Program-made: the position numbers and the translations under genes
The notes under the pieces: generated by a model
What the model was told of the DNA's origin: nothing
The model's input: the letters and a program-made list of their open reading frames with translations, nothing else
Database searches by the model: none
Origin: Sipunculus nudus
Taxonomy: Eukaryota; Annelida; Sipuncula; Golfingiida; Sipunculidae
Assembly: GCA_026874595.1 (NCBI GenBank)
Contig: CM049309.1
Span: 75,066,426 to 75,130,425, forward strand
Direction: 5' to 3'
DNA: 64,000 nt
Part shown: positions 6,525 through 64,000 of the stretch, piece after piece
How the letters are laid out: every line of letters starts with the position of its first letter
Position numbering within the stretch: position 1 is the first letter of the stretch

Positions 6525-9500
6525 GTGAATAACTATATAAATGATCATGAATATAATGATATAAGTAACTATATAGTCAGTTATTTGCGATTACCATCCA
6601 TGCCATTCATGTTTGAGATTACTATTTATGTAGTTTAAGATTTAAAATCAAGATGGTTTAAGATTTGCCATCCAGGTGGTGTTTGAAATTTATCATCAAG
6701 AGAATCATTTTAGATTAACTATCTAGATGGTGATTTGAGATTTACCACTCAGATGGTCAGGTTTGAGAAAACCATCCTAATGTTGGTCTGACATTGGTGG
6801 TTTGAGATTTACCATCCAGATGGTGGTTTGAGATTGGTGGTTTGGGATTTACCATCCAGAAAGTGGTTTAATATTTACCATCCAGATGGTGGTTTGAGAT
6901 TTACCATCCAGAGAGTGGTTTGAGATTTACCATCCAGAGGTTGGTTTAATATTTACCATCCAGATTGTGGTTTGAGATTTACCGTCCAGAGAGTGGTTTG
7001 AGATTTACCATCCAGAGGTTTGTTTAATATTTACCATCCAGAGAGTGGTTTGAGATTTACCATCCAGAGAGTGGTTTGAGATTTACCATCCAGAGAGTGG
7101 TTTGAGATTTACCATCCAGAGGTTTGTTTAATATTTACCATCCAGATGGTGGTTTGAGATTTACCATCCAGAGAGTGGTTTGAGATTTACCATCAAGAAG
7201 ATGGTTTGAGATTGATGGTTTTAGATTTACCATCCAGATGATGGTTTAATATTTACCATCCAGATGGTGGTTTGAGATTGCTGGTTTGAGATTAACCATC
7301 CAGAAAGTGGTGTGAGATTTACCATCCTGTGACGGTGGTTTGAGATTGACCATCCAGACGGTGGTCCGAGATTTACCATCCAGAGAGTGGTTTGAGATTT
7401 ACCATCAAGAAGATGGTTTGAGATTGATGGTTTTAGATTTACCATCCAGATGATGGGTTTTAGATTTACCATCCTGTTGGTGGTTTGAGATTTACCATCC
7501 AGCGAGTGGTTTGAGATTTACCATCCAGAGAGTGGTTTGAGATTTACCATCAAGAAGGTGGTTTGGGATTTACCATCCAGACAGTGGTTTGAGATTAACC
7601 ATCAAGAAGGTGGTTTGAGATTGATGGTTTGAGATTTACCATCCAGACAGTGGTTTGAGATTTACCATCAAGAAGGTGGTTTGAGATTGATGGTTTGAGA
7701 TTTACCATCCAGACGGTGGTTTTAGATTTACCATCCTGTTTGTGGTTTTAGATTTACCATCCAGATGATGGTTTGAGATTGGTAAGGGATTTACCATCCA
7801 TCCGATGGTTTGAGATTAATTACCAGGTGGTGTAACACCTGATCACCTCTAATATTTCAGTACAAAGGAAGCACAGCAAAGCATGCTGTGAATAACTATA
7901 TAAATGATCATGAATATAATGATATAAGTAACTATATAGTCAGTTATTTGCGATTACCATCCATGCCATTCATGTTTGAGGTTACTATTCATGTAGTTTA
8001 AGATTTAAAATCAAGATGGTTTAAGATTTGCCATCCAGGTGGTGTTTGAAATTTATCATCAAGAGGATCATTTTAGATTAACTATTTAGATGGTGATTTG
8101 AGATTTACCACCCAGATGGTCAGGTTTGAGAAAACCATCCTAATGTTGGTCTGACATTGGTGGTTTGAGATTTACCATCCAGATAGTGGTTTGAGATTGA
8201 CCATCCAGACGGTGGTCCGAGATTTACCATCCAGACGGTCGTTTGAGATTTACCATCCAGATGGTGGTTTGAGATTGGTGGTTTGGGATTTACCATCCAG
8301 AAAGTGGTGTGAGATTTACCATCCAGATGGTGGTTTGAGATTGGTGGTTTGGGATTTACCATCCAGATAGTGGTTTGAGATTTACCATCCAGATGGTGGT
8401 TTGAGATTTACCATCCAGATGGTGGTTTGAGATTGGTGGTTTGAGATTTACCATCCAGATAGTGGTTTGAGATTTACCATTCAGATAGTGGTTTGAGATT
8501 TACCATCCAGACGGTGGTTTGAGATTTACCATCCAGACGGTGGTTTGAGATTTACCATCCAGACAGTGGTTTGAGATTGGTGGTTTGAGATTTACCATCC
8601 AGAGGTTGGTTTAATATTTACCATCCAGATGGTGGTTTGAAATTTACCATCCAGATGGTGGTTTGAGTTTGCTGGTTTGAGATTAACCATCCAGAAAGTG
8701 GTGTGAGATTTACCATCCTGTGACGGTGGTTTGAGATTGACCATCCGGACGGTGGTCCGAGATTTACCATCCAGAGAGTGGTTTGAGATTTACCATCAAG
8801 AAGGTGGTTTGAGATTGATGGTTTTAGATTTACCATCCAGATGATGGGTTTTAGATTTACCATCCTGTTGGTGGTTTGAGATTAACCATCCTGTGACGGT
8901 GGTTTGAGATTGACCATCCAGACGGTGGTCCGAGATTTACCATCCAGAGAGTGGTTTGAGATTTACCATCAAGAAGGTGGTTTGAGATTGATGGTTTTAG
9001 ATTTACCATCCAGACGGTGGTTTTAGATTTACCATCCAGATGATGGTTTGAGATTGGTAAGGGATTTACCATCCATCCGATGGTTTGAGATTGATAGTTT
9101 GAGATTTACCATCCAGACGATGGTTTTAGATTTACCATCCCGTTGGTGGTTTGAGATTTACCATCCAGAGAGTGGTTTGAGATTTACCATCCAGAGAATG
9201 GTTTGAGATTTACATTCAAGAAGGTGGTTTGAGATTTACCATCCAGACAGTAATTTGAGATTTACCATCAAGAAGGTGGTTTGAGATTGATGGTTTGAGA
9301 TTTACCATCCAGACAGTGGCTTGAGATTTACCATCAAGAAGGTGGTTTGAGATTGATGGTTTGAGATTTACCATCCAGAGGGTGGTTTTAGATTTACCAT
9401 CCTGTTTGTGGTTTTAGATTTACCATCCAGATGATGGTTTGAGATTGGTAAGGGATTTACCATCCATCCGATGGTGTGAGATTGATGGTTTGAGATTTAC

Positions 9501-11500
9501 CATCCAGACGATGGTTTTAGATTTACCATCCTGTAGGTGGTTTGAGATTTACCATCGAGAGAGTGGTTTGAGATTTACCATCCAGAGAGTGGTTTGAGAT
9601 TTACCATCAAGAAGGTGGTTTGAGATTTACCATCCAGACAGTGGTTTGAGATTTACCATCAAGAAGGTGGTTTGAGATTGATGGTTTGAGATTTACCATC
9701 CAGACAGTGGTTTGAGATTTACCATCAAGAAGGTGGTTTGAGATTGATGGTTTGAGATTTACCATCCAGATGGTGGTTTTAGATTTACCATCCTGTTTGT
9801 CGTTTTAGATTTACCATCCAGATGATGGTTTGAGATTGGTAAGGGATTTACTATCCATCCGATGGTTTGAGATTAATTACCAGGTGGTGTAACACCTGAT
9901 CACCTCTAATATTTCAGTACAAAGGAAGCACAGCAAAGCATGCTGTGAATAACTATATAAATGATTATGAATATAATGATATAAGTAACTAAATAGTCAG
10001 TTATTTGCGATTACCATCCATGCCATTCATGTTTGAGGTTACTATTCATGTAGTTTAAGATTTAAAATCAAGATGGTTTAAGCTTTACCATCCAGGTGGT
10101 GTTTGAAATTTATCATCAAGAGAATCATTTTAGATTAACTATCTAGATGGTGATTTGAGATTTACCACCCAGATGGTCAGGTTTGAGAAAACCATCCTAA
10201 TGTTGGTCTGACATTGGTGGTTTGGGATTTACCATCCAGATAGTGGTTTGAGATTTACCATCCAGATAGTGGTTTGAGATTTACCATCCAGATGGTGGTT
10301 TGAGATTTACCATCCAGACGGTCGTTTGAGATATACCATCCAGATGGTGGTTTGAGATTGGTGGTTTGGGATTTACCATCCAGATTGTGGTTTGAGATTT
10401 ACCATCCAGACGTTGGTTTGAGATTTACCATCCAGATGGTGGTTTGAGATTTACCATCCAGATGGTGGTTTGAGATTTACCATCCAGACAGTGGTTTGAG
10501 ATTGGTGGTTTGAGATTTACCATCCAGAGGTTGGTTTAATATTTACCATCCAGATTGTGGTTTGAGATTTACCATCCAGAGAGTGGTTTGAGATTTACCA
10601 TCCAGAGGTTGGTTTAATATTTACCATCCAGATGGTGGTTTGAGATTTACCATCCAGATGGTGGTTTGAGATTGCTGGTTTGAGATTTACCATCCAGAAA
10701 GTAGTGTGAGATTCATCATCCTGTGACGGTGGTTCGAGATTGACCATCCAGACGGTGGTCCGAGATTTACCATCCAGAGAGTGGTTTGAGATTTACTATC
10801 AAGAAGGTGGTTTGAGATTGATGGTTTGAGATTTACCATCCAGACGATGGTTTTAGATTTACCATCCTGTTGGTGGTTTGAGATTTACCATCGAGAGAGT
10901 GGTTTGAGATTTACCATCCAGAGAGTGGTTTGAGATTTACCATCAAGAAGGTGGTTTGAGATTGATGGTTTGAGATTTACCATCCAGACGATGGTTTTAG
11001 ATTTACCATCCTGTTGGTGGTTTGAGATTTACCATCCAGAGAGTGTTTTGAGATTTACCATCCAGACAGTGGTTTGAGATTTACCATCAAGAAGGTGGTT
11101 TGAGATTTATCATCCAGACAGTGGTTTGAGATTTACCATCAAGAAGGTGGTTTGAGATTGATGGTTTGAGATTTACCGTCCAGACAGTGGTTTGAGATTT
11201 ACCATCCAGACGGTGGTTTTAGATTTACCATCCTGTTTGTGGTTTCAGATTTACCATCCAGATGATGGTTTGAGATTAATTACCAGGTGGTATAACACCT
11301 GATCACCTCTAATATTTCAGTACAAAGGAAGCACAGCAAAGCATGCTGTGAATAACTATATAAATGATCATGAATATAATGATATAAGTAACTATATAGT
11401 CAGTTATTTGCTATTACCATTCTCTACTCTAATATTTCAGTACAAAGGAAGCACAGCAAAGCATGCTGCTAGTCTATAATAATTGCTGTGACCAGCCATT
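6525..11500. repeat. Higher-order minisatellite, unit about 26 bp
   Basis: Hundreds of bases of the unit GAGATTTACCATCCAGANNG followed by TGGTTT repeat in tandem. They are mixed with a 14-base short form (GAGATTGATGGTTT). Three large blocks each open with the same unique header of about 280 bp (starts at 6525, 7888 and 9944) and close with the same tail (starts at about 7815, 9868 and 11272; TTAATTACCAGGTGGTRTAACACC). A fourth, truncated header at 11347 is fused to a partial tail ending at about 11472. Block lengths are about 1363, 2056 and 1403 bp. Each unit holds the palindrome ACCATC-CA-GATGGT. Short open frames on the - strand (7227-7472, 8120-8362, 8618-8863, 8857-9072) only reflect the repeat and are not genes. 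Confidence 0.92.
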
Positions 11501-23700: not shown

Positions 23701-24547
23701 ATCATCATTCTACTACTGCTTATTACTGCTGTCATTGCAATTATACTTGCTCAAATATATCACAATTTTTAACCCCTCCTAAATAAATAAAAATAAACCA
23801 CTATATTTGACTCTATTAATCCATCAATCAGGTTATTTCATTTATCATTTACTCACATATTACATTACATTCCTTTATAATAGCCCAACATGTCCATGAT
23901 ATTCATAAGCTTTAACGACTTGATATAGTATCACAGTGGAGAAACATTTATGGTCCAATCACGATCAGCTGAGCGCCGTGACCCATGGGTCCCTTGTTTT
24001 CTTTTACATTCAGTTTATACATTTGATTTAAAAATAATAAAATATATGTGTATGCATAATATGACCCAATGTGAGCTACACTCTGGATATATAATGATTG
24101 CAACTTAGAATTCTAATATTTTAACTTATAATTTCAGTTTTTTATTACAAATTTATAAAACTTGTAAATAAAAAAATGAATCAGATAAAAACTATTAATG
24201 GAAATAGTAGTTATGCTAAAAAAATGGGCTTATTTATAAACTTAAAGGCATTATTCCCTTGAAAGTGAAATAAAGGTATTAGTCCATTCTGTCCTCTTGC
24301 CTGTCCATCTGTAAATTTTTCATATGCTTCACAGTATCTCAAAACTTTTACTGTTTTCCTTCATGACAGTCTTGTCAGAGTATTAGTTTGCAATCATATA
24401 TTTAGAACTTTACTATAACCAAGTAGGAGGGCCCCTTTCCTCTTAGCTTCTCATACGCTTATATAAATGAAAAACATTACAATAGAATATTTTGCATTTG
24501 CAATTTCAAACTTCAGCTGAGCGCCGTGACCCATGGGTCCCTTGTTT
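20785..24547 (+). mobile_element. Family A element, copy 1, nested in family B
   Basis: It starts with the family A hairpin (TTAGCTCAGCTGACTATAAG, paired to CTGAGCT downstream), followed by a CCGTC-rich tract. It ends with CAGCTGAGCGCCGTGACCC, ATGGGT and CCCTTGTTT. The end sequence occurs twice (about 23966-23999 and 24513-24547), because a 3' segment of about 500 bp has been duplicated: 22790-23340 resembles 24000-24500. A poly-C run lies at 22279-22306. A 72-bp tandem duplication lies at about 22853-22995. No transposase or other long open frame is present, so this is a non-autonomous element of unassigned class. Confidence 0.75.
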
Positions 24548-31195: not shown

Positions 31196-31263
31196 TGTTT
31201 GTATACAATGGACTGCCTTTCATTGGTTTTGGTCTCCTTGACAACGTTATTATGATAATTGCG
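31196..31263 (+). CDS. TMEM65: TMEM65 exon: transmembrane helix 1
   Basis: The exon begins after TTTTGTTGCAG with two bases (TG) that finish a split codon, then encodes FVYNGLPFIGFGLLDNVIMI and IA. It ends in phase 0 before GTAAGTG, a near-perfect donor. The LPFIGFG-LDN-IMI pattern is the hallmark of TM1 in TMEM65 proteins; the vertebrate version reads IPFIGFGFLDNAIMI. The entry phase requires an upstream exon ending one base into a codon. The helix is glycine-rich with one buried Asp-Asn pair. This exon is common to both isoforms and joins either 37642 or 44220, which both start in phase 0. Confidence 0.93.
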
Positions 31264-34937: not shown

Positions 34938-37579
34938 TTAGCTCAGCTGACTATAAGTCATCTGAGCTATAGTCGTGGTCCATTGTCCGTCGTCCGTCCG
35001 TCTGTCCGTCCGTCCGTCCGTCCGTCCGTCCGTCCGTCCGTAGATGTGGCACGTTTTGAAACCGTAAGACCTAGGAATCCAAAATTCGGCATAATGTTAG
35101 ATGTCCCCAAGATCTCCTACCAAGCCGAAAACTGGGTCTTTGCAACTTTGTTCCTTTGAGAAATTAAGGAAAAACCTCAATTTTTTATTAAAAATCTATT
35201 TTCACACTTTAGGACTGCCTAATATCAAAACCACTCATCTGTTTTTCCTCATATTTACCATAAATATTCCCCTATATAGTTCCTATGTACATGCCAGAAA
35301 TTATGTCTGTATTATTTAATTTAAAAAAGTTCTGGGCCCAAACATAATGCATTTTGAAAAAAATAAGGAAAGATATTTGATCACTTAACACAAAAAATGT
35401 TAAAGCTGTGGACCTTTTTTCCAGTAATATAACTTTAATTAATCAAAATTAAATTGTATACCCAAAATTAGATGAAAATCTTTTAAATTTTTTGAAATAT
35501 TGATAAAAATAAAAAATTGGTACCTTAAATTTTGCCCAACTTTGACCATGGCACGTTTTTTTCCTGTAAGTACTGTGGATTTAATTTTTACAGCATGTTT
35601 TTGTCAGCATTTCAACTGTTAACACCAAAAATTTGAAACCAGTTGATCAAAAACTGTAGATTTTAATCAAGTTTTCAAGCACCTTGTAACATATTGTTTA
35701 CATCAAGCTAGTGTTTGCAAAAGCTCAAAAGCTCAGCTCCCCAGCTTCAGCTCTAAGTTCCTTAAATTCAGCATACAGTTAGATGTCTCCAAAATCCCCT
35801 ACCATGCCAAGAATTTGGTCACTAGGACTTAATACCTTCGAGATATTAATGAAAAACTTCATTTTTCCATTAAAAAACCCATTGTTACACTTCAAGACTG
35901 TCTAATATCAAAACCACTGATCTGACTTTAATCATAAACAATATACATATTTTTCATTCTCTATGCACATCCCAGAATGATGTCAGTATTGCGTAATTGT
36001 TTTAAGTTATGGGCCCAAACATAATGCACTTTGTAAAAAATCAAGAAATATATTTACTCCCTTAACAAGGGCATTGCTAGAGATTTTTTTGTCAGGGATG
36101 TAACATTATTTAATCAAGATTCAATTGAATACCCAAAATTAGTTCTGAATTTTTCAAATTTTATAAGTTATTAGTATAAATATAAAATTAGTACCTTAAA
36201 TTTTGCCCAACTGTGACCATGGCACGTTTGTTTCCCATGAGCACTGTTGATATAATTTTCATATCATGCACACATAAGGATTTCAGCTTTTTAGTTTAGA
36301 AAGCTGAAAGATATTGGCCAAAAATTGTAGCTTTTATTAATGTTTTTTATGAGACCCTGTCAGACTTTGGCTCTTTCCAGCCCCTCTTGAGTCACCTGTA
36401 TGTTGACCTTGTTGACCTTTCATCAAATTATGCACGCTTGAGGCGAGGCATACAGGAATCCAGGCAGCTTATGGCCAGCCACAGTTGATCCAGGTGTCCA
36501 ACCCAACTCATCTAGTAGTTTTAACCAACAACATAACAATAAACAACAAATTAATAAATTTTTATTGGTTTTTAATAACAAATTAAAGAAAAATAGAAAA
36601 GGAATTTGTTAGTTTATAATAACAGGAAATTAACTTGCAGTTACTGATGATATAAGAATCTTGTATCAATGGGTAGAATGTCACATATTCCAAATAACAC
36701 CATGCAGTCACCTATGGCATTTTTCAGTTCAATTTTAATGATAAAGAAGTAAATCATATTATTCATTACTAATCATTAGGGATAATATGAAGGAAATTAA
36801 TGATAGACAAAGATGCAGTTGATAATATTAATCTAGATTCCTACTGTGTCTAGTGTGTACATTGATGTGAAATTAGTCCAAAATGAATTTTTTACAGTTA
36901 TTTTTTAATATAAATAAAAACCATAAAACCAGGTACTTATGATCATTATTTAAATGTGTGAATTTTGTATATTCTGGATTCTCAACATCATTGTTTGGTG
37001 AAAATTGAATAAATACCAGACATGGTGCGAATACTTTGTAATTGTATTTAAATACGAATATGATTATGTACTCCATTATAAAATTTCTTGCATAAAGAAT
37101 GGGAATTCAGGTAAAAATGAAAGTATATGAATACTCGTGCAAATACTTTCAAAATGTATTCATGAATGCATTCATGAATATATTCTTTAATATTATTTTA
37201 ATAATCATATCAGTTATATTTCATTTTAAAAAATCATATGATTCTCTCATTATTTTTAATAAAAATTATATTTGGGACAATATTTGTAATTTTTTTAAAT
37301 AAATAGTTAAACTCTTATATTATATGTTCTGCTTATAAGTTATATGGCCAAGTCAAAATCTGTGTGACAATAGTACTCCAATTGTTAATAAAATAAATGA
37401 AATCAATCCTCTTCCCTGTCTCCAAAGGTACTATCAAAATCATACATAAGCTAAACAACAACAACTCATAATACAGCTTATATTTATTACCACACAAAAC
37501 CAGCATGTGCCTCATTTCTAAATAATATTTTTTTATCATATATAACAGCTGAGCGTCGTGACCCATAGGTCCCTTGTTT
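34938..37579 (+). mobile_element. Family A element, copy 2 (long subfamily)
   Basis: Starts TTAGCTCAGCTGACTATAAG with the terminal hairpin and a (CCGT)n tract at about 34990-35040. It ends CAGCTGAGCGTCGTGACCC, ATAGGTCCCTTGTTT. The body holds two diverged modules starting ATACAGTTAGATGTC-like (about 35088 and 35770), so the element grew by internal duplication. It is collinear with copy 4 at 47725 over its full 2.64 kb. There is no long open frame. It ends about 62 bp before alternative exon A. Confidence 0.85.
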
Positions 37580-37641
37580 TTGTTTTGCTGCATGATCTGT
37601 AGCTTGTGTACCCCGTCAGTAATGAAACTGTTGTCTTGTAG

Positions 37642-37696
37642 GGCGAATATATAGACGCAACAATAGGTGCAATGCTTGGAATCTCAACGATGGCAG
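37642..37696 (+). CDS. TMEM65: TMEM65 alternative exon A (mutually exclusive)
   Basis: Acceptor CTGTTGTCTTGTAG and donor GCAG-GTAGGG bound 55 nt encoding GEYIDATIGAMLGISTMA plus the first base of an alanine codon. This aligns with the vertebrate G-x-x-I-E-x-S-I-G-I-I-L-G-I-S-T-M-A segment: the loop after helix 1 and the start of helix 2. Start phase 0 and end phase 1 are the same as in exon B at 44220. At nucleotide level it matches exon B at 40 of 55 positions. Five of 18 residues differ: Tyr/Gln 3, Ala/Ser 6, Ala/Val 10, Met/Val 11, Leu/Phe 12. A family A element ends only about 62 bp upstream and a family B element begins 236 bp downstream. Confidence 0.88.
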
Positions 37697-37932
37697 GTAG
37701 GGGGCGCTAGCAGTACAGTTGCCACACCAGCTTGCTTTTTGTTTGTGTTTTCACTGTGTGCAGTGCTGCCTTGCTTTCATTTTCAGATCTTTATTGCTGT
37801 ATACTGCTGTCTTCCAGCATACGGCTTAATTTCAGCTGACTTTATTGTCGCTGCCTGACCCATTATGTATGACCTTTGACCTTTTCCATCAGGCAGTCAA
37901 TGTAGCTGACATATAACTTTGAACTTCTTTTT

Positions 37933-39270
37933 ATGCCCCCGCCACAAAGTGGCCGGGTCATATAGTTTTACCCATGTCCGTCATTCCGTCCTTCCGTCAT
38001 TCCGAAATCAAACAGTTGTACGGACTTTTTTTCGCAATGCCTGCAGATATTGGCCTAATTTTTGGTGTGTGGGCAGATATAGACCAGTTACAGATCGAGT
38101 TCGCGTTTCATCCCGATTGACCTACTTTTGACCGTTTTACGGCTCCTAAACTTAGAAAATTTCATGAAAAATAGAAATATTCATGACAGATACACATGTA
38201 CGGACTTTTTTTCGCAATGCCTGCAGATATTGGCCTGATTTTTGGTGTGTGAGCAGATATAGACCAGTTACAGATAGAGTTCGCGTTTCCTCCTGGTTGA
38301 CCTACTTTTGACCGTTTTACGGCTCCTGAACATACAAAATTTCATGAAAAATATGAAATTTCATGACAAATACACATGTACGGACTTTTTTTCGCAATGC
38401 CTGCAGATATTGGCCTGATTTTTGGTGTGTGGGCAAATATAGACCAGTTACAGATCAAGTTCACGTTTCGTCCCGGTTGACCTACTTTTGACCATTGTAC
38501 AAACATAGAAAATTTCATGAAAAATAGAAATATTCATGAAAGATACACATGTACAGACTTTTTTTCGCAATGCCTGCAGATATTGGCCTGATTTTTGGGG
38601 TGTGGGCAGATATAGACCTGTTACAGATCGAGTTCGCGTTTCGTCCTGGTTGACCTACTTTTGACCGTTTTACGGCTCCTGAACATAGAGAATTTCAGGA
38701 AAAATATGAAATATCATGACAAATACACATGTACGGACTTTTCTTCACAATACCTGCAGATATTGGCCTGATTTTTGGTGTGTGGGCAGATAATGACCAG
38801 TTACAGATCAAGTTCAGGTTTTGTCCCAGTTGACCTATTTTTGACCGTTTGACGGTGCTCTAACAAAGAAAATTTCATAAAAAGGTGCATATGTATGGAC
38901 TTTTTTTCGCAGTGCCTGCAGATACGGGCCTGATTTTTGGTGTGTAGGCAGATAATGACCAGTTACAGATCGAGTTCTTTTTTTCTCTCAGTTGACCTAC
39001 TTTTGACCATTTGACTGCTCCTGAACATAGAAAGTTTCATGAAAAATATAAATTTTCATAACAAATGCACATGTATGGACTTTTTTTCAAAATGCCTGCA
39101 TATACTGGCATGATTTTTGGTGTGTTGCTTGATAATGACCCGTTACAGATCGAGTTTGCATTTTGCCCTTATTGACCTACTTTTGACCATACGACACCTC
39201 CTGAACTTAAAAAAAATTTTCTAATTTGCCCAAGGCGGGGGCATTCGTGTCGTTCCGACACATCTAGTTT
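37933..39270 (+). mobile_element. Family B element, full length, seven 180-bp monomers
   Basis: The left end ATGCCCCCGCC is the exact inverse of GGCGGGGGCAT near the right end (about 39234-39244). A small hairpin GCCACAAAGTGGC lies inside the left end. Between them about seven monomers begin near 38020, 38200, 38380, 38554, 38734, 38897 and 39077 with CGGACTTTTTTTCGCAATGC. The first three are spaced exactly 180 bp apart. The element ends GTCGTTCCGACACATCTAG. It carries no coding frame, so it is non-autonomous or satellite-like. It sits between the two alternative exons. Confidence 0.85.
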
Positions 39271-39316
39271 TAAATGCAATAGTGTATAATTTTTTATAAA
39301 TTTCTCTGTCAGCTTT

Positions 39317-40855
39317 TTAGCTCAGCTGACTATAAGTCATCTGAGTTATAGTCGTGGTCCATTGTCCGTCGTTCGTCCGTCTGTCTTGCCATCCGTCCGT
39401 CCAGATGTCCGTCCGTAAGACTGGCATGTTTCGACACCATTGGACCTACTAATCTGAAATATGGCATACAGTTAGATGTCCCCAAAATCTCCTACCATGC
39501 CAAAAATTGGGTCAAAAAGACTGTTCATTTGAGATATTCAGGAAAAACCTTAATTTTTTATTAGAAATCTATTTTCACACTTCAGGACTGCCTAATATCA
39601 AAACCACTCATCTGGTTTTCTTCTTATTTACCATAAATATTCTTCTATATAGTTCCTATGTACATGCCAGAAATTAAGTCGGTATTATTTAATTTAAAAA
39701 AGTAATAGGCCCAAACATAATGGACTTTGTAAAAAAATCAGGAAAGATATTTGGTCACTTAAGACCAAAAGTGTTAAAGGTAGGGACTTTTTTTCAGTAA
39801 TACAACTTTAATTGATCAAAATTTAATTGTATACCAAAAATTAGATCAAAATCTGTTAAATTTTTTAAATATTGGCAAAAATATAAAATTGGTACCTTTA
39901 ATTTTGCCCAACTTTGGCCATGGCACGTTTTTTTCCTGTAAGTACTGTGGATTTAATTTTCACAGCATGTACAATTAAGGATTTAATCTGTTAAAATCTG
40001 AAATTTGAAAATAAAAGCTGCAAAATTAGGCTAGGTATTGAATTTTTTTGGAGGCTCTTGTTGTATTCCCCTTACATTGTCAAGCAGTCCACTTAGGTGA
40101 CTGGAGATCATTCAGTGCAGCTCTCTCCACTGAGTTGAGCTTACTCAGGCTGTCTGCAGTTAATACCATACCATAGGGAGCCTTTTTCTCTGGCACCCCT
40201 TCCCCCCCCCCCCCCCCCCCTTCTGTTGACGGCCTGTACTATGAACTAGATGAATCTTAAAATTAACTTATTTTCAGCTACGAGCAGTAACAATGGAGAC
40301 CCCTCCCCCCCACCCACCCCTTCAATACACAGGACTATTAAACAAGATGAATCTTATAATTTTAATTATAATAAATTCTTTTTTTTATGAGACTTGGACA
40401 ATTTTGATTGTTTAAAGAAAAAAAAAAACTGGAATTTAATCCTAATATTCAAATGTGATAAAATATTAGGATCTAATGTAAGTGCTAACTGACAAGATTT
40501 AAGAAGATATAAATACTTTGTAGCATTTCATTCATATCTCTTAAAGTTGGTGGGGCCAAGGTGTGAATAACACTGAACTTTTGAAAACTTAATTACCTTC
40601 ACACATTATTTGTTTCTGAAATGTTACTTTTATATAACACTTACCGTAGGCCTATTTGTTCCCTTGGTGCATCACTGAATGGTTTAGCTCATGTCCATTA
40701 TTCTATAATTTACAGAGTTTCTTTTAGCAGGGCCATTTTCTCATAGCTTTTCTAAAGATAATATACATGAAAAACCAAAAGAAATAAAAATATTTTGCAG
40801 TTACTAATATTTTCCAAAATTCAGCTGAGCGATGTGACCCATGGGTCCCTTGTTT
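39317..40855 (+). mobile_element. Family A element, copy 3 (short subfamily)
   Basis: It has the same terminal hairpin start and CAGCTGAGCGATGTGACCC, ATGGGTCCCTTGTTT end. It is only about 1.54 kb and shares with copy 1 a poly-C run (40203-40220) followed by ACTAGATGAATCTTA-like sequence, which copies 2 and 4 lack. It lies between alternative exons A and B. Confidence 0.85.
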
Positions 40856-41871
40856 ACTTTGATTAAATCATATTTATAAATAGAAAAATAATAAATTAAG
40901 TTAAATATACTGTATATTTCTCTATAAAAACATTTTTAATTTTTCTAATTGAGTGAACAAACTTCAAAGAGAAATTTATTTCTTCAAATATTAAGCAAAT
41001 TAAAGATAGCAAAATAAATTAAATGGAAAAATTAAACCAAATGCACTAAGATAATGGCATTTAATTTTAAAACAGTTGAACAAATAAACATGCATATTAA
41101 CACAAAAAGGATAATTGACCAGAAAAAAATCATATTTAAGTAGTGGGAAGGCAATATACTAGAATGACGTAAATGCAGCTCTTTAGTCAGCTCTTAAGTT
41201 AGCTCTTTTAAATATATAGAGATCTGTGCCAAAGAGCTCAAGTAAGAGTAACATTCAACAGCTCCAGCATGTTCAGAGGACTCACTGGATTAATTAGAAC
41301 ATACAATCATTTCATGGAAGAAAGCTAGGGAGGACCAGGAGAGCTAGACTATTTATATTACAACCATCATGCAGTAAGTTTGAACTACACAGCTTATAGT
41401 TCTGTAAGCTCGCATAGATAGAAAATATGTTAATATCAGAAACACTGCAATTTTTTTAACCATAAATGATATCTCCTTGCTCATTTGGTTTATATCATGA
41501 ATAAAATCAAGTTGAACAGTTTGTTTTTTCAAAAGCTGCCTCAAATTGTTATATTTTATATTTATTTAAATAATTTTAAATATTCCATCGGACAATGCAT
41601 TTTCTTTATTTGTTATTTAAAAACTTGTTTATTTTATAACCTTGTTTAGTATTTCATCATACTGACTTTTTATAATGGCATGCATTCTGAAAGTATTTAA
41701 ATTGTATGTAAGTACATCATACAAACCCATTTTGATATTAATCATGATATAGGATATATTCCTTGAATTTTATAACTAGATAGAGTTATTTCTACTATCA
41801 AAATACTGCAAATATACATTTCCTGTGGAATATTTACAATTTTCATTAATAAATAAAAGAATGTGCATAAC
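40856..41871. other. TMEM65 intron DNA, nothing recognised
   Basis: AT-rich, with repeated AGCTCTTTAGTCAGCTCTTA-like words near 41178-41215. No exon seen. Confidence 0.5.
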
Positions 41872-42279
41872 CTTTAAAGTGAATGTGAAAACTTCAACAG
41901 AGATAATTGATATTTGACTTCCAGTTTAGAGAGACCCCCTTCATATGAGTAAAAAGCTTGCGCATACGCTGCGGGAATGTTCCCACAACATACCAGCAGC
42001 CTCTGTCTGGTATCCCATTGTCCGATCAAAAAGCTAATATACAGCCTCATGAATACTGTCAGAACGTTCACGCTACTTTAAAGTGAATGTGAAAACTTCA
42101 ACAGAGATAATTGATATTTGACTTCCAGTTTAGAGAGACCCCCTTCATATGAGTAAAAAGCTTGCGCATACGCTGCGGGAACGTTTCCACAACATACCAG
42201 CAGCCTCTGTCTGGTATCCCATTGTCCAATCAAAAAGCTAATACACAGCCTCATGAATACTGTCAGAACGTTCAGGCTA
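41872..42279. repeat. Tandem duplication, period 204 bp
   Basis: Two copies start CTTTAAAGTGAATGTGAAAA at 41872 and 42076 and differ by only a few bases. The duplication is therefore recent. Open frames of 65 and 70 codons on the - strand are the same frame in each copy and show no known domain. Confidence 0.9.
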
Positions 42280-42465
42280 CACACAAGCATTCCTGGGGGT
42301 ACGTTGTGGGAACTTTCCCTCTAGGTACCAGCATTCCTGTTCGTAGATTGCGGGTATGTTCCCACTACGTACTAGCATTCCTGTTGGTACATTGTGGTTA
42401 TGTCCTGCTACATACCAGCATTCCTGTTGGTACATTGAGGATAACGTTCCCACTTCATGTTGTCA
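42280..42465. repeat. Decayed tandem array of about 50 bp
   Basis: Three to four units of GTACATTGTGG..ATGTTCCCACTAC followed by TACCAGCATTCCTGTTG. Related words (GGGAATGTTCCCACAACATA, CCAGCAG) occur inside the preceding 204-bp units, so the two arrays share an origin. Confidence 0.75.
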
Positions 42466-44219
42466 CAGGCCTGATTTTTCTGTATGGGCTGCTTTAGAAA
42501 TTGGACCTGGGAAATTGTACCATTGCACACATTGTGCATAAGTTATTTGTCACCATCAGTTGGCATTTCGTGTTGACTGTATTGCAGTTCGGACCAAAAT
42601 TGGACAAATTTATTCAGTGATTCTTTACTTACATTCCCTGTACTGCTTAAGAATTTGGACCAGATATATTGTACAGTTGCAAACATTGTATGTATATATG
42701 TCTAATATATACCAGTCTGACATGGATTTATTGAAGGGGTTGAGAATTGCACAAAAATTATAATCCTTCATATAAAGAAATGCTAACAGATAAAAATAAG
42801 TGACATTTTAATTATCATAAAAAGTCTGCAAAGTGCCTGACCATTGTGTTTATGAAAATTAATTAAATATTAATAATGAATGATAACATTGCAAAAAAGT
42901 GAATGTTGCCTGGGAATTAGGTTGAAATAAATTAGTGAAAGGGTAAAGGAAGAAATCAATGAGGCAGTGACAGCTTAATTAATTTAGAAGAGTGAGAGAA
43001 TGACTTTGGAATTGTGTTAAGTTCAGTGGGGGTTAATGGAGAGAGCTCTGTGGAGTTGTTCATTATCTTTTCTTACATTTTAACAATTAACCTCCCCAAG
43101 AGGAGAGGTTCTTTGAAGTGGAGGCTCAGCGTTCTCTTATTAATGGCCACATCTTAGAGGAAACTGCCAGGTTTAATGATGCTCAAGGACCACAAAGGTA
43201 ACACAATCACTACTTAAACATTGGTCTAGACTTTACACAGGTCCAAGCTGAGGTGCCATTTTGTCTTGGACTGCATTGAAGTTCAGGAGCAAAATTTTAA
43301 AAATTTCACCAATTTATTCAGTGCAGCTGTAGTATAATCTGCTTTAATATTTTATCACCGTAATTCTATTTCATGATTACATCTGTAAATATAAGCATCA
43401 ATGGTTACTTTACAAAGTTACACAGTTTTAATTTGGCCAATTTCATTTTCACCAAAATTTACATATATTTCCTATTTCTAGGTTCAAGAACTGGGTATAA
43501 AAGTTATCCACTTTTAAATAAGTAAAACAAATATTTACTGACAAGTCTGTGGCCATCTACAGTGTTAATGTTACATAAAATTTTCATGAATGGAGCACCT
43601 GATTCTGTGCTATAGATTTCAGAAAAAGTAATAGCTTAGCTGATTAGCTTAATTCATCCATAATACATGTTTATTCTACATTCTCTGTAATTAACTAAAT
43701 AAATGTTTGATACTTACCTACTTATGTCATCACACAGATAAAATCATATTTATTAGCAATAGAATATCAGTGGCTACAATCAACTGGTCATGAATTTCTA
43801 ATATTCATCTGTCAGATTTGACTTGTCCAGTAAATGGAATGATTTTGCCAAGATAAGAACTAAATCAATAACAGAGAAAAACAAAACTTTGCCTGTGGCA
43901 GGTTCTACAAACCAACTATTTATTAATATTCCCTTAAAAATTCCCAAGGGAAATCATCTGTGAATATTTTGTCTGTTGAAATTATTTGTGGGTCTGACTC
44001 AGTGTCATGAGATCATTTGCATGTCTGGGTCAAGGTCATTAAATCATTTGCCTGTGTGGATAAAGGTCATAAGGTCATGTTCATATATGAGTCAAGGTCA
44101 TTTTGTTAGCTGCTTGAACCTTGGTGACCGAGCTGTCCTGTTTCTGTTTTACTGTTTTCAAATCTCTGTTTCTACTTACATGACTGGCTCTCTATTTCTC
44201 TGCTGTATATACCTTACAG
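42466..44219. other. TMEM65 intron DNA up to exon B
   Basis: Nothing recognised. At 43980-44110 there are several AGGTCAT words (ATGTCTGGGTCAAGGTCATT and variants), a degenerate short tandem. Confidence 0.5.
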
Positions 44220-44274
44220 GGCGAGCAGATAGACAGCACCATTGGTGTTGTGTTTGGTATCTCTACTATGGCAG
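44220..44274 (+). CDS. TMEM65: TMEM65 alternative exon B (mutually exclusive)
   Basis: Acceptor CTGCTGTATATACCTTACAG and donor GCAG-GTACAG bound 55 nt encoding GEQIDSTIGVVFGISTMA plus one base. It occupies the same place in the protein as exon A and has identical length and phases. Using both exons would place 110 nt between phase-0 and phase-1 neighbours and shift the frame; skipping both would also shift it. Therefore one and only one can be used. Both copies keep GISTMA and the Gly-Glu-x-Ile-Asp loop, so both look under purifying selection rather than one being a pseudo-exon. Which exon is used in which tissue cannot be seen from the sequence. Confidence 0.9.
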
Positions 44275-44804
44275 GTACAGTATAGACAAATGAGGTACCG
44301 TGTTACCCCATGCATTTGCCAACAGTTCACCCACCAAATTTAGGCAGTACTGCCATGCTATACTTTTTTAAACATATTTTTTTATCAGGAAAGACTATGC
44401 TTTTTCATAATTTTCAAATGGTTTATATTTTTTAAATTTTTTCTCAAATTATCATCTTCAAGATGTGATTTTAGTCTGTTTACATGAACATAGCCTTATT
44501 TCAATTTTTCATTCCTTGGCCCACACTTTCAACATATTTGATATTTAATGACTTTTTCATGACCTTCAACATAAATGCATGACCTTTTCACCACAACTTT
44601 GACAAGAAGCAGTTCAGTTCATCCATTACAGTTTACAAGTGACAGGGTTTCCACACTCCCAAAAGATTGATTTTTCATTACATTTTTGAAAATTTCCAAA
44701 CAATCATGGCTTTTAAAGGGCATTTAAACCCTGCTTTTGCTAAGTGTTCACTCTCTAATGTTGGCATCTACCATCAATCAGTGCTGAAGTTCCAATTCCT
44801 TCTC

Positions 44805-46267: not shown

Positions 46268-46310
46268 CTGCTGCTTTAGGTAATCTGATATCAGATGTGG
46301 CAGGCGTGGG
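46268..46310 (+). CDS. TMEM65: TMEM65 exon: helix 2 core
   Basis: After TCTCTTTTTCAG, 43 nt finish the alanine codon and encode AALGNLISDVAGVG, then two bases of a glycine codon before GTGAGT. The (A)AALGN-SD-AG pattern matches vertebrate AAAALGNLVSDLAGLG, the conserved second half of helix 2 with polar Asn, Ser and Asp. It enters in phase 1 and leaves in phase 2, consistent with both alternative exons upstream and with the 52090 exon. Its small size makes it easy for gene predictors to miss. Confidence 0.93.
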
Positions 46311-52089: not shown

Positions 52090-52195
52090 GACGGCAGGGT
52101 ATGTGGAAGCACTGGCAAGTAGAGCGGGTGTCCAGACTCCAGACATAACCACCGCTCAGGGCAACATGTGGCAGACAAGATGGATGGTGGCTCTT
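52090..52195 (+). CDS. TMEM65: TMEM65 exon: inter-helix loop with VEALASR and MWQTR motifs
   Basis: After ATCTTTGTACAG the exon completes a glycine and encodes TAGYVEALASRAGVQTPDIT, then TAQGNMWQTRWMVAL. It ends in phase 0 at GTAAGTC. GYVEALASR, PD-T and MWQTR are near-identical to vertebrate TMEM65, where they form the amphipathic loop between helices 2 and 3. An element with TA duplications begins 142 bp into the next intron. Confidence 0.94.
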
Positions 52196-54255: not shown

Positions 54256-54432
54256 GGTCGGGCAATAGGTGTGTCTTTAGGGTGCTTGCTTGGGATGTTT
54301 CCCTTACTGTTCTACGATAATGACAAGGAAGAAAAAGAAGAAATGGAGGCCTTGAAAATCCTCGAGGTAAAAGGTGCTACAACGATAGAAAAAGCCTCTC
54401 AGCAAGGAAAGGTGACTTCATCACAATCATAG
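54256..54432 (+). CDS. TMEM65: TMEM65 last coding exon: helix 3 and C-terminal tail
   Basis: After TTTTATTTCTTTTACAG, 59 codons including TAG encode GRAIGVSLGCLLGMFPLLFY (helix 3; vertebrate GKAVGVTIGCILGMFPLIFF). A charged tail of 38 residues follows, starting DNDKEEKEEMEALK and ending SSQS. The tail is acidic and lysine-rich at first, then Ser/Thr/Gln-rich, and is longer than the roughly 13-residue tail after helix 3 in mammals. An in-exon CTCGAG-GTAAAAGG at 54361-54374 resembles a donor, so a shorter tail by further splicing is possible but not needed. The 3' UTR follows directly. Confidence 0.93.
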   Translation, partial: GRAIGVSLGCLLGMFPLLFYDNDKEEKEEMEALKILEVKGATTIEKASQQGKVTSSQS

Positions 54433-62975: not shown

Positions 62976-64000
62976 GTATCACGACTCAAGTTAGGCTTAC
63001 CAGCGAAATATAAGTGCCTATACTGAGTCGTGGTGTCAGGCTTACCAGTCCAATATAAGGGCCTATACTGAGTCGTGGTGTCAGGCTTACCAGCGAAATA
63101 TAAGTGCCTATACTGAGTCGTGTTGTCAGGCTTACCAGTCCAATATAAGTGCCTATACTGAGTCGTGGTGTCAGGCTTACCAGTCCAATATAAGTGCCTA
63201 TACTGAGTCGTGGTGTCAGGCTTACCAGCGAAATATAAGTGCCTATACTGAATCGTGGTGTCAGGCTTACCAGTCCAATATAAGTGCCTATACTGAGTCG
63301 TGTTGTCAGGCTTACCAGTCCAATATAAGTGCCTATACTGAGTCGTGGTGTCAGGCTTACCAGTCCATTATAAGTGCCTATACTGAGTCGTGGTGTCAGG
63401 CTTACCAGTCCATTATAAGTGCCTATACTGAGTCGTGGAGTCAGGCTTACCAGCGAAATATAAGTGCCTATACTGAGTCGTGGTGTCAGGCTTACCAGTC
63501 CATTATAAGTGCCTATACTGAGTCGTGTTGTCAGGCTAACCAATCCATTATAAGTGCCTATACTGAGTCGTGGTGTCAGGCTTACCAGTCCAATATAAGT
63601 GCCTATACTGAGTCGTGGTGTCAGGCTTACCAGTCCATTACAAGTGCCTATACTGAGTCGTGGTGTCAGGCTTGCAAGTCCAATATAAGTGCCTATACTG
63701 AGTTGTGTTGTCAGGCTTATCAGTCCAATATAAGTGCCTATACTGAGTCGTGGTGTCAGGCTTACCAGTCCATTATAAGTGCCTATACTGAGTCGTGGTG
63801 TCAGGCTTACCAGTCCATTATAAGTGCCTATACTGAGTCGTGTTGGCAGGCTTACCAGTCCAATATAAGTGCCTATACTGAGTCGTGGTGTCAGGCTTAC
63901 CAGTCCATTATAAGTGCCTATACTGAGTTGTGTTGTCAGGCTTACCAGTCCATTGTAAGTGCCTATACTGAGTCGTGGAGTCAGGCTTACCAGTCCAATA
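62976..64000. repeat. 45-bp satellite array, open at the right edge
   Basis: About 22 copies of a 45-bp unit (TAAGTGCCTATACTGAGTCG, TGGTGTCAGGCTTACCAGTC, then CAATA or CATTA) run to the end of the window. Units are very alike; variants include GCGAAA for GTCCAA and TGTTG for TGGTG. Because 45 is divisible by 3, one - strand frame stays open for 185 codons (63543-62986) as a 15-residue repeat, LVSLTPRLSIGTYIG. That frame is best explained by the period and not by a gene. Confidence 0.93.

Follow-up and report, generated by a model that had tools for sequence, protein, structure and literature searches.

The TMEM65 locus carries two copies of one internal exon

We describe here a 64,000-nt stretch of the genome of the annelid Sipunculus nudus (assembly GCA_026874595.1, contig CM049309.1, positions 75,066,426 to 75,130,425; hereafter the window), which carries on its + strand a TMEM65 gene with six readable coding exons, e2, A, B, e4, e5 and e6 (Table 1). 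Exons A and B lie between e2 and e4 and encode two versions of the same protein segment. They are most probably a frame-locked, mutually exclusive pair that arose by old tandem duplication of a single internal exon and provides two forms of the second transmembrane helix (TM2). A preliminary description of this DNA had placed two 55-nt exons here, with intact splice sites, the same phases and agreement at 13 of the 18 residues and at 40 of the 55 bases, and all of this is read directly from the sequence. Both exons have GT-AG sites, are entered in phase 0 and left in phase 1, and neither contains a stop codon. The acceptor and donor are ...TTGTCTTGTAG and CAG/GTAGGG for exon A, and ...ATACCTTACAG and CAG/GTACAG for exon B.

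Table 1. Coding exons of TMEM65 in the window and the intron that separates A from B (nt, nucleotides; TM1, first transmembrane helix).
Feature	Position	Strand	Peptide	Remarks
e2 (upstream exon)	31196..31263	+	VFVYNGLPFIGFGLLDNVIMIIA	predicted TM1; donor GCG/GTAAGT
Exon A (first copy)	37642..37696	+	GEYIDATIGAMLGISTMA + 1 nt	55 nt
Intron between A and B	37697..44219	+		6523 nt; 180-bp tandem array at 38017-39190; repeats recurring elsewhere in the window
Exon B (second copy)	44220..44274	+	GEQIDSTIGVVFGISTMA + 1 nt	55 nt; weaker donor CAG/GTACAG
e4 (downstream exon)	46268..46310	+	A-AALGNLISDVAGVG	first premature stop here if both or neither of A and B are included
e5	52090..52195	+	(G)TAGYVEALASRAGVQTPDITTAQGNMWQTRWMVAL	
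e6 (last coding exon)	54256..54432	+	GRAIGVSLGCLLGMFPLLFYDN...SSQS*	with stop codon

Spliced with exon A, the readable exons give 149 residues that are 63% identical to human TMEM65. Both forms match the Pfam family TMEM65 (PF10507) over profile positions 2-109 of 109, at 154.9 bits for the A form and 155.6 bits for the B form, against a curated cut-off of 25. An artificial in-frame deletion of the swapped segment lowers the score to 103.7 bits, so the segment is worth about 51 bits. The e2 peptide is 70% identical to human residues 117-139, its first residue assuming a G supplied by a 5′ exon that did not turn up. The 5′ exons for the mitochondrial targeting part were not found; a human stretch used as query had two matches, one to e2 and the other a weak one at a site that contains two stops. 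None of the four open reading frames of at least 120 aa in the window contained a Pfam family.

The assembly that was searched holds 1,426,538,692 bases (1.43 Gb) in 153 contigs. With the A-form protein as query, all four scored matches fell within the TMEM65 gene (e6, e5, e2 and A), and with the B form all three did: B (E 3.4e-4), the e4 stretch (0.24) and A (0.37). A second TMEM65 gene was thus not seen in the assembly, in a search that scored four candidates, itself missed e4 and B, and could be escaped by a divergent paralogue. The PF10507 profile had no match in the whole genome and none in 14 control genomes either, hence absence is not concluded from it.

A six-frame scan of the window with exon A, scored with BLOSUM62, gave 88 for A itself, 65 for B and 27 for the next place, which is TMEM65's own last exon. 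The scan with exon B gave 87 for itself, 65 for A and 22 for the next place, and no third copy appeared in the window. A degenerate search pattern that spells G-I-S-T-M-A, then one base and a GT donor, had exactly two matches across the whole assembly, A and B; the same pattern read backwards as a control had none on the forward and one on the reverse strand. Given the gap in the window scan and only two pattern matches, a chance origin of the resemblance is excluded.

The likeness ends at the splice sites. Compared without gaps, 40 of 55 bases agree inside the exons, as opposed to 29 of 100 in the flanking intron, counted over the 50 nt that adjoin each exon end (15/50 on the upstream and 14/50 on the downstream side; Fisher p=2e-7). 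The 100-nt flanks beat most shuffles, the score being reached by 1 of 200 on each side; shuffles reached it in 8/200 upstream and 61/200 downstream for 300-nt flanks, and in 112/200 and 72/200 for 600-nt flanks. Of 3000 random intron pieces from the same gene, 61 for the A flank and 13 for the B flank did as well as the 100-nt upstream score, and 10 and 18 of 3000 as well as the downstream score. The upstream match falls in a repeat that is present elsewhere in the window. Downstream of the exons there is a 24-nt stretch (GCAGTnCTGCCnTGCT...; 37760-37783 and 44344-44367), 19/24 alike, which begins 64 and 70 nt past the ends of A and B; it is borderline against the controls and is possibly a shared intronic splicing element or a remnant of the duplication. 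Between 50 and 97 nt upstream of exon A lies a 48-nt repeat (37545-37592), of which 39, 39, 36 and 33 bases recur at 24513, 23965, 50332 and 40821, respectively, and which may have shaped the weak acceptor of exon A.

These comparisons also bear on whether A and B could be allelic or collapsed copies joined in tandem during assembly. Nothing at the locus itself favors such an artefact, although the assembly holds bacterial contigs and is therefore not perfectly clean. On the other hand, the exons differ at 15 of 55 bases, their flanks are largely unlike, a 6.5 kb spacer separates them and the locus lies about 75.1 Mb into its contig. For two haplotypes to diverge by 27% within a coding exon would be highly exceptional, and we regard an artefact as extremely unlikely.

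Single inclusion keeps the reading frame

With A alone or B alone, the reading frame stays uninterrupted across e4, e5 and e6 and ends at the regular stop codon. Inclusion of both exons shifts the frame and leads to a stop in e4, 133 nt before the last exon junction, and skipping of both leads to a stop in e4 137 nt before it; in either case the premature stop sits upstream of two junctions. By the usual rule for nonsense-mediated decay, double-inclusion and skipping transcripts would both be targets. Of the earlier proposal that the exons are mutually exclusive, it therefore stands that single inclusion is the only arrangement that keeps the frame, and exclusive use in transcripts is probable. 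We suggest that an old tandem duplication of one internal exon gave rise to A and B, that the spliceosome would pick one of them for each transcript, and that transcripts with both or neither would be removed by nonsense-mediated decay. A and B are adjacent, internal and homologous, with the same phases and length, intact splice sites and an unproductive double inclusion, and these are among the features by which mutually exclusive exons are recognized. Further criteria for such exons are junction reads that run from each exon past the other, with no reads, or solely frameshifting ones, that link the two (PMC5740500). In human, 377 (60%) of the clusters of such exons have exons that are not divisible by three, a frameshift route to exclusivity (PMC5740500).

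The same architecture could instead serve mainly to control dose, as an unproductive-splicing switch that lowers the TMEM65 level via nonsense-mediated decay, with two peptides that are near-equivalent. Whether both exons are included or both are skipped, the first stop falls in e4 with two junctions still to follow, which would fit such a switch. So would the near-equal Pfam scores of the two forms and the fact that four of the five positions that differ between A and B also differ between human TMEM65 and the distant homologue described below. A second full coding copy is not needed for this purpose, however, as a non-coding poison exon would do. Moreover, 13 of 18 residues are kept despite near-saturated synonymous divergence, suggesting that both peptides are used. 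We consider it unlikely that dose control is the main role of the pair.

The proposed swap falls mostly within the predicted second transmembrane helix

In human TMEM65 the counterpart of the swapped segment is residues 140-157, and transmembrane helices are predicted at 122-138 (TM1), 145-161 (TM2) and 211-227 (TM3) (PMC3994636). Five residues of the segment therefore lie in the loop, and the other 13 occupy most of the 17 positions of predicted TM2 and include a G-xxx-G motif. The segment is thus not mainly the loop and the entry of helix 2, as had been thought at first. The residue differences between A and B are Y/Q, A/S, A/V, M/V and L/F, and the final three of these occupy the x positions of G-xxx-G. 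The middle of this motif reads AML in A, VVF in B, IIL in human and VAL in a homologue from a Verrucomicrobiaceae metagenome-assembled genome (MAG), with summed side-chain volumes of 418, 470, 500 and 395 cubic angstroms, respectively.

The MAG homologue is used solely as a distant comparison sequence. It is 49% identical, lies at positions 501-860 of a stretch of a contig in that MAG, and was the lone relative in 132 pattern-matching stretches. Among 387 genomes drawn from the phylum of this MAG, one had a match, which was the same MAG, and the 90 pattern matches in viral contigs included no relative. The homologue may reflect horizontal transfer or a stray eukaryotic contig.

Positions 140, 143, 148, 152, 154 and 155 (G, I, G, G, S and T) are the same in A, B, human TMEM65 and the MAG homologue. 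Both A and B keep six of the eight positions that are identical between human and the MAG homologue, and at 144 both have D in place of the E of those two sequences. Over the segment, A and B are identical to human at 11/18 and 10/18 residues and to the MAG homologue at 8/18 and 9/18; with values this close, neither A nor B stands out clearly as the older one.

TMEM65 is described as carrying a glycine zipper motif and, in a report cited within the same paper, as forming a homodimer; its knock-out leads to loss of Na+-dependent mitochondrial Ca2+ efflux (PMC13254257). We infer that this glycine zipper is the G-xxx-G of the swapped segment. The two forms, which would differ in TM2 chiefly inside G-xxx-G (AML and VVF), could differ in helix packing or homodimerisation, and this in turn could alter mitochondrial Na+/Ca2+ exchange in its rate, its affinity or its regulation. 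Taken alone, this functional part is tentative, and we lean slightly away from it; the earlier suggestion that ion handling or partners might differ is likewise tentative. Forms of mouse Tmem65 of 25 and 17 kDa have been described, in an account that does not state their exon origin (PMC9579145). No solved structure in PDB matched human TMEM65 by sequence at E <= 0.001.

Age of the duplication, selection and strength of the splice sites

By the Nei-Gojobori method, synonymous divergence between A and B (dS) is 1.19 and non-synonymous divergence (dN) 0.20, a ratio of about 0.17, over 12.8 synonymous and 41.2 non-synonymous sites. A dS this near to saturation bears out the earlier view that the duplication is old. 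The 15 base differences fall on codon positions 1, 2 and 3 as 4, 2 and 9, so that third positions differ in 9/18 cases and the others in 6/36 (Fisher p=0.02). We simulated neutral decay in 100,000 runs, with one copy free of selection for 0.54 substitutions per site, which is a little under half of dS. At most five residue changes and no stop were found in 82 runs when starting from A and in 79 when starting from B, and in 12 and 13 runs when the AG and GT were also required to be intact. At 0.4 substitutions per site about 1% of copies were retained, and about 0.2% with intact AG and GT. The exon is short and its divergence estimate uncertain for that reason, which makes purifying selection acting on the two peptides likely but not proven. 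That both copies are maintained, as had been proposed, is thus probable from the dN/dS ratio and the intact frames and splice sites, but falls short of proof on so few sites.

Several observations weigh against the pair as we read it. The donor of exon B is the weakest of the five scored with a donor matrix (0.93, compared with 5.48 for e2, 5.10 for A, 5.03 for e4 and 3.40 for e5), though it is still at the 93rd percentile of the 1344 GT sites between 30 and 55 kb of the window. The acceptor of exon A has 9 pyrimidines in 16 positions and no yUnAy within 100 nt. Given this weak donor and this poor acceptor, either of the two exons could be of minor use. At position 151, A, human and the MAG homologue all carry L and B carries F. 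At a neutral divergence of 0.2 per copy, 28-31% of neutral copies look equally good, or 13-14% with AG and GT intact, and the synonymous estimate rests on the 12.8 sites of a short exon.

The same points favor the view that one of the copies is a relic or a noise exon, which transcripts rarely or never include and which is intact by chance: B has the weakest donor and alone departs from L at 151, A has a poor polypyrimidine tract, and a selection test on 18 codons is of limited power. Set against this, an open frame without indels, both splice sites, 13 of 18 retained residues and near-saturated synonymous sites are, taken together, improbable for a neutral copy (the 12 and 13 runs given above for 0.54 substitutions per site), and both copies keep six of the eight positions shared by human and the MAG homologue. 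We find a relic exon quite improbable, and favor two exons that are both in use.

How one exon could be chosen

The splice sites of the two exons are unequal: A combines a strong donor with a poor polypyrimidine tract and a 20-nt AG-free zone, and B combines a weak donor with a better acceptor (11/16 pyrimidines) and an 85-nt AG-free zone. This inequality suggests a choice by splicing factors. Unequal, suboptimal sites suit a regulated choice, and they would also suit one minor exon.

Other routes to exclusivity were considered. Steric interference applies where donor and branch point are less than about 50 nt apart. It is implausible here, where the exons are separated by an intron of 6523 nt with a tandem array and repeats and the B acceptor is preceded by its 85-nt AG-free zone. 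Incompatibility of U2 and U12 sites is also unlikely, as the GT-AG sites look, by eye, like ordinary U2 type. In human, possible steric interference was found in 57 (9%) and U2/U12 incompatibility in five (0.79%) of the mutually exclusive clusters (PMC5740500). For RNA pairing between docking and selector sites, four scans were each compared with 10 shuffles. The best shared site lay beyond all shuffles in two of the four, narrowly so (-34.5 vs -33.8 and -35.6 vs -34.5), and shuffles were better in the other two (-37.8 vs -38.7 and -30.6 vs -35.2), all within a single genome.

Comparison with known systems

The closest parallel that we find is COQ-2, which has mutually exclusive exons 6a and 6e in rhodoquinone-making animals, namely helminths, annelids and molluscs (PMC7434440). 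Like the TMEM65 pair, these are tandem internal exons of a length not divisible by three (134 nt each in C. elegans), and their gene encodes an enzyme of the respiratory-quinone pathway. In contrast to the TMEM65 pair, their swap alters substrate choice and is backed by RNA and by exon deletion in C. elegans (PMC7434440), whereas the TMEM65 exons are 55 nt long, lie in a transmembrane helix of an ion-exchange protein and are a pair predicted from sequence. The S. nudus genome contains a coq-2-like tandem pair on the - strand, with an a-like exon of 134 nt (C10:12257067-12257200) and an e-like exon of 131 nt (C10:12260552-12260682). Both leave a remainder of 2 on division by 3, the e-like exon being one codon shorter. 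The labels a and e come from likeness to a stretch of human COQ2 and from two positions, 38 residues apart, at which the e-like exon carries L and S and the a-like exon F and A; the invariant e-form residues are L204 and S243, 39 apart (PMC7434440). This pair fits a lineage that bears the a and e forms, and the same architecture would then occur in another mitochondrial-metabolism gene of this genome.

Three further systems are similar in part. OGDH has mutually exclusive exons 4a and 4b (Ca2+-insensitive and Ca2+-sensitive) in a protein of Ca2+-linked mitochondrial metabolism, but there exclusivity is enforced through distant branch points, in an intron that is short (118-131 nt in birds and mammals) and keeps transposons out (PMC7969005), a mechanism that is implausible for TMEM65 because its intron is 6523 nt long and holds repeats. 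Oyster AOX, a mitochondrial inner-membrane protein, has a duplicated exon 10 whose copies are 63.5% and 65.9% similar in two oysters and whose isoform use shifts under air exposure; unlike the TMEM65 exons, this is a terminal exon with its own stop, chosen by alternative 3′ splice sites (PMC5589949). A second AOX terminal exon was not seen in the 5 kb that were read in the S. nudus genome. NALCN, too, swaps homologous exons in a membrane ion-transport protein, and such swaps are enriched in ion transport, but NALCN is an ion channel and its exon pairs alter Ca2+/Na+ selectivity (PMC9741552).

TMEM65 does not occur in the main texts of the human atlas of mutually exclusive exons (PMC5740500) or the tandem-exon paper (PMC9741552). 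We found no report of a TMEM65 exon pair in the open-access literature, judged by titles and the openings of some abstracts. We also know of no duplicated exon in vertebrate TMEM65. Vertebrate TMEM65 belongs to the same family, and the excerpts of PMC13254257 and PMC3994636 do not mention a duplicated exon in it. The TMEM65 pair would join a known class of mutually exclusive exon pairs, and in the open-access literature the pair itself is apparently unreported.

Other features of the window and the assembly

The window also contains a 4.4 kb minisatellite at 6835-11277, whose repeat unit is 26 bp long and which also shows higher-order periodicity at 40, 66, 92 and 144 bp, and a 45-bp tandem array with 92% matches at 62993-64000, which runs off the window end and whose - strand is in part open, reading as a repeated peptide like WTGKPDTTTQYRHLY. 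The assembly holds bacterial-looking contigs of up to 3.3 Mb (C61, C89, C138 and others) with single-ORF prenyltransferase genes. C61 has a heme o synthase above the NCBIfam cut-off, C138 has part of a gene just below the cut-off for 4-hydroxybenzoate octaprenyltransferase, and 12 places in the assembly share one UbiA score. These contigs represent a bacterial associate or a contaminant present in several copies. RuBisCO had no matches in the assembly.

Implications

Mitochondrial Na+/Ca2+ exchange has been tied to TMEM65, with differing views on its relation to NCLX (PMC13254257, including titles cited there). The swap between A and B touches just the last part of a loop and the greater part of TM2, where 13 positions stay the same and five change, and the pair amounts to a natural structure-function experiment on this protein. 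Our best guess, by analogy with coq-2 exons 6a and 6e, is that a switch between A and B would depend on tissue or oxygen. Going further, one may speculate that in anoxia-tolerant lineages with the coq-2 a/e pair, TMEM65 acts as a two-state Na+/Ca2+ exchanger, in which TM2 would be swapped within its G-xxx-G helix-packing motif in step with the coq-2 switch, giving aerobic and anaerobic modes of matrix Ca2+ extrusion; we put this forward as an idea that is doubtful at present. If both forms are used, an ion-exchange protein would join COQ-2 and AOX among the mitochondrial proteins of marine invertebrates that are reported to switch by means of duplicated exons.

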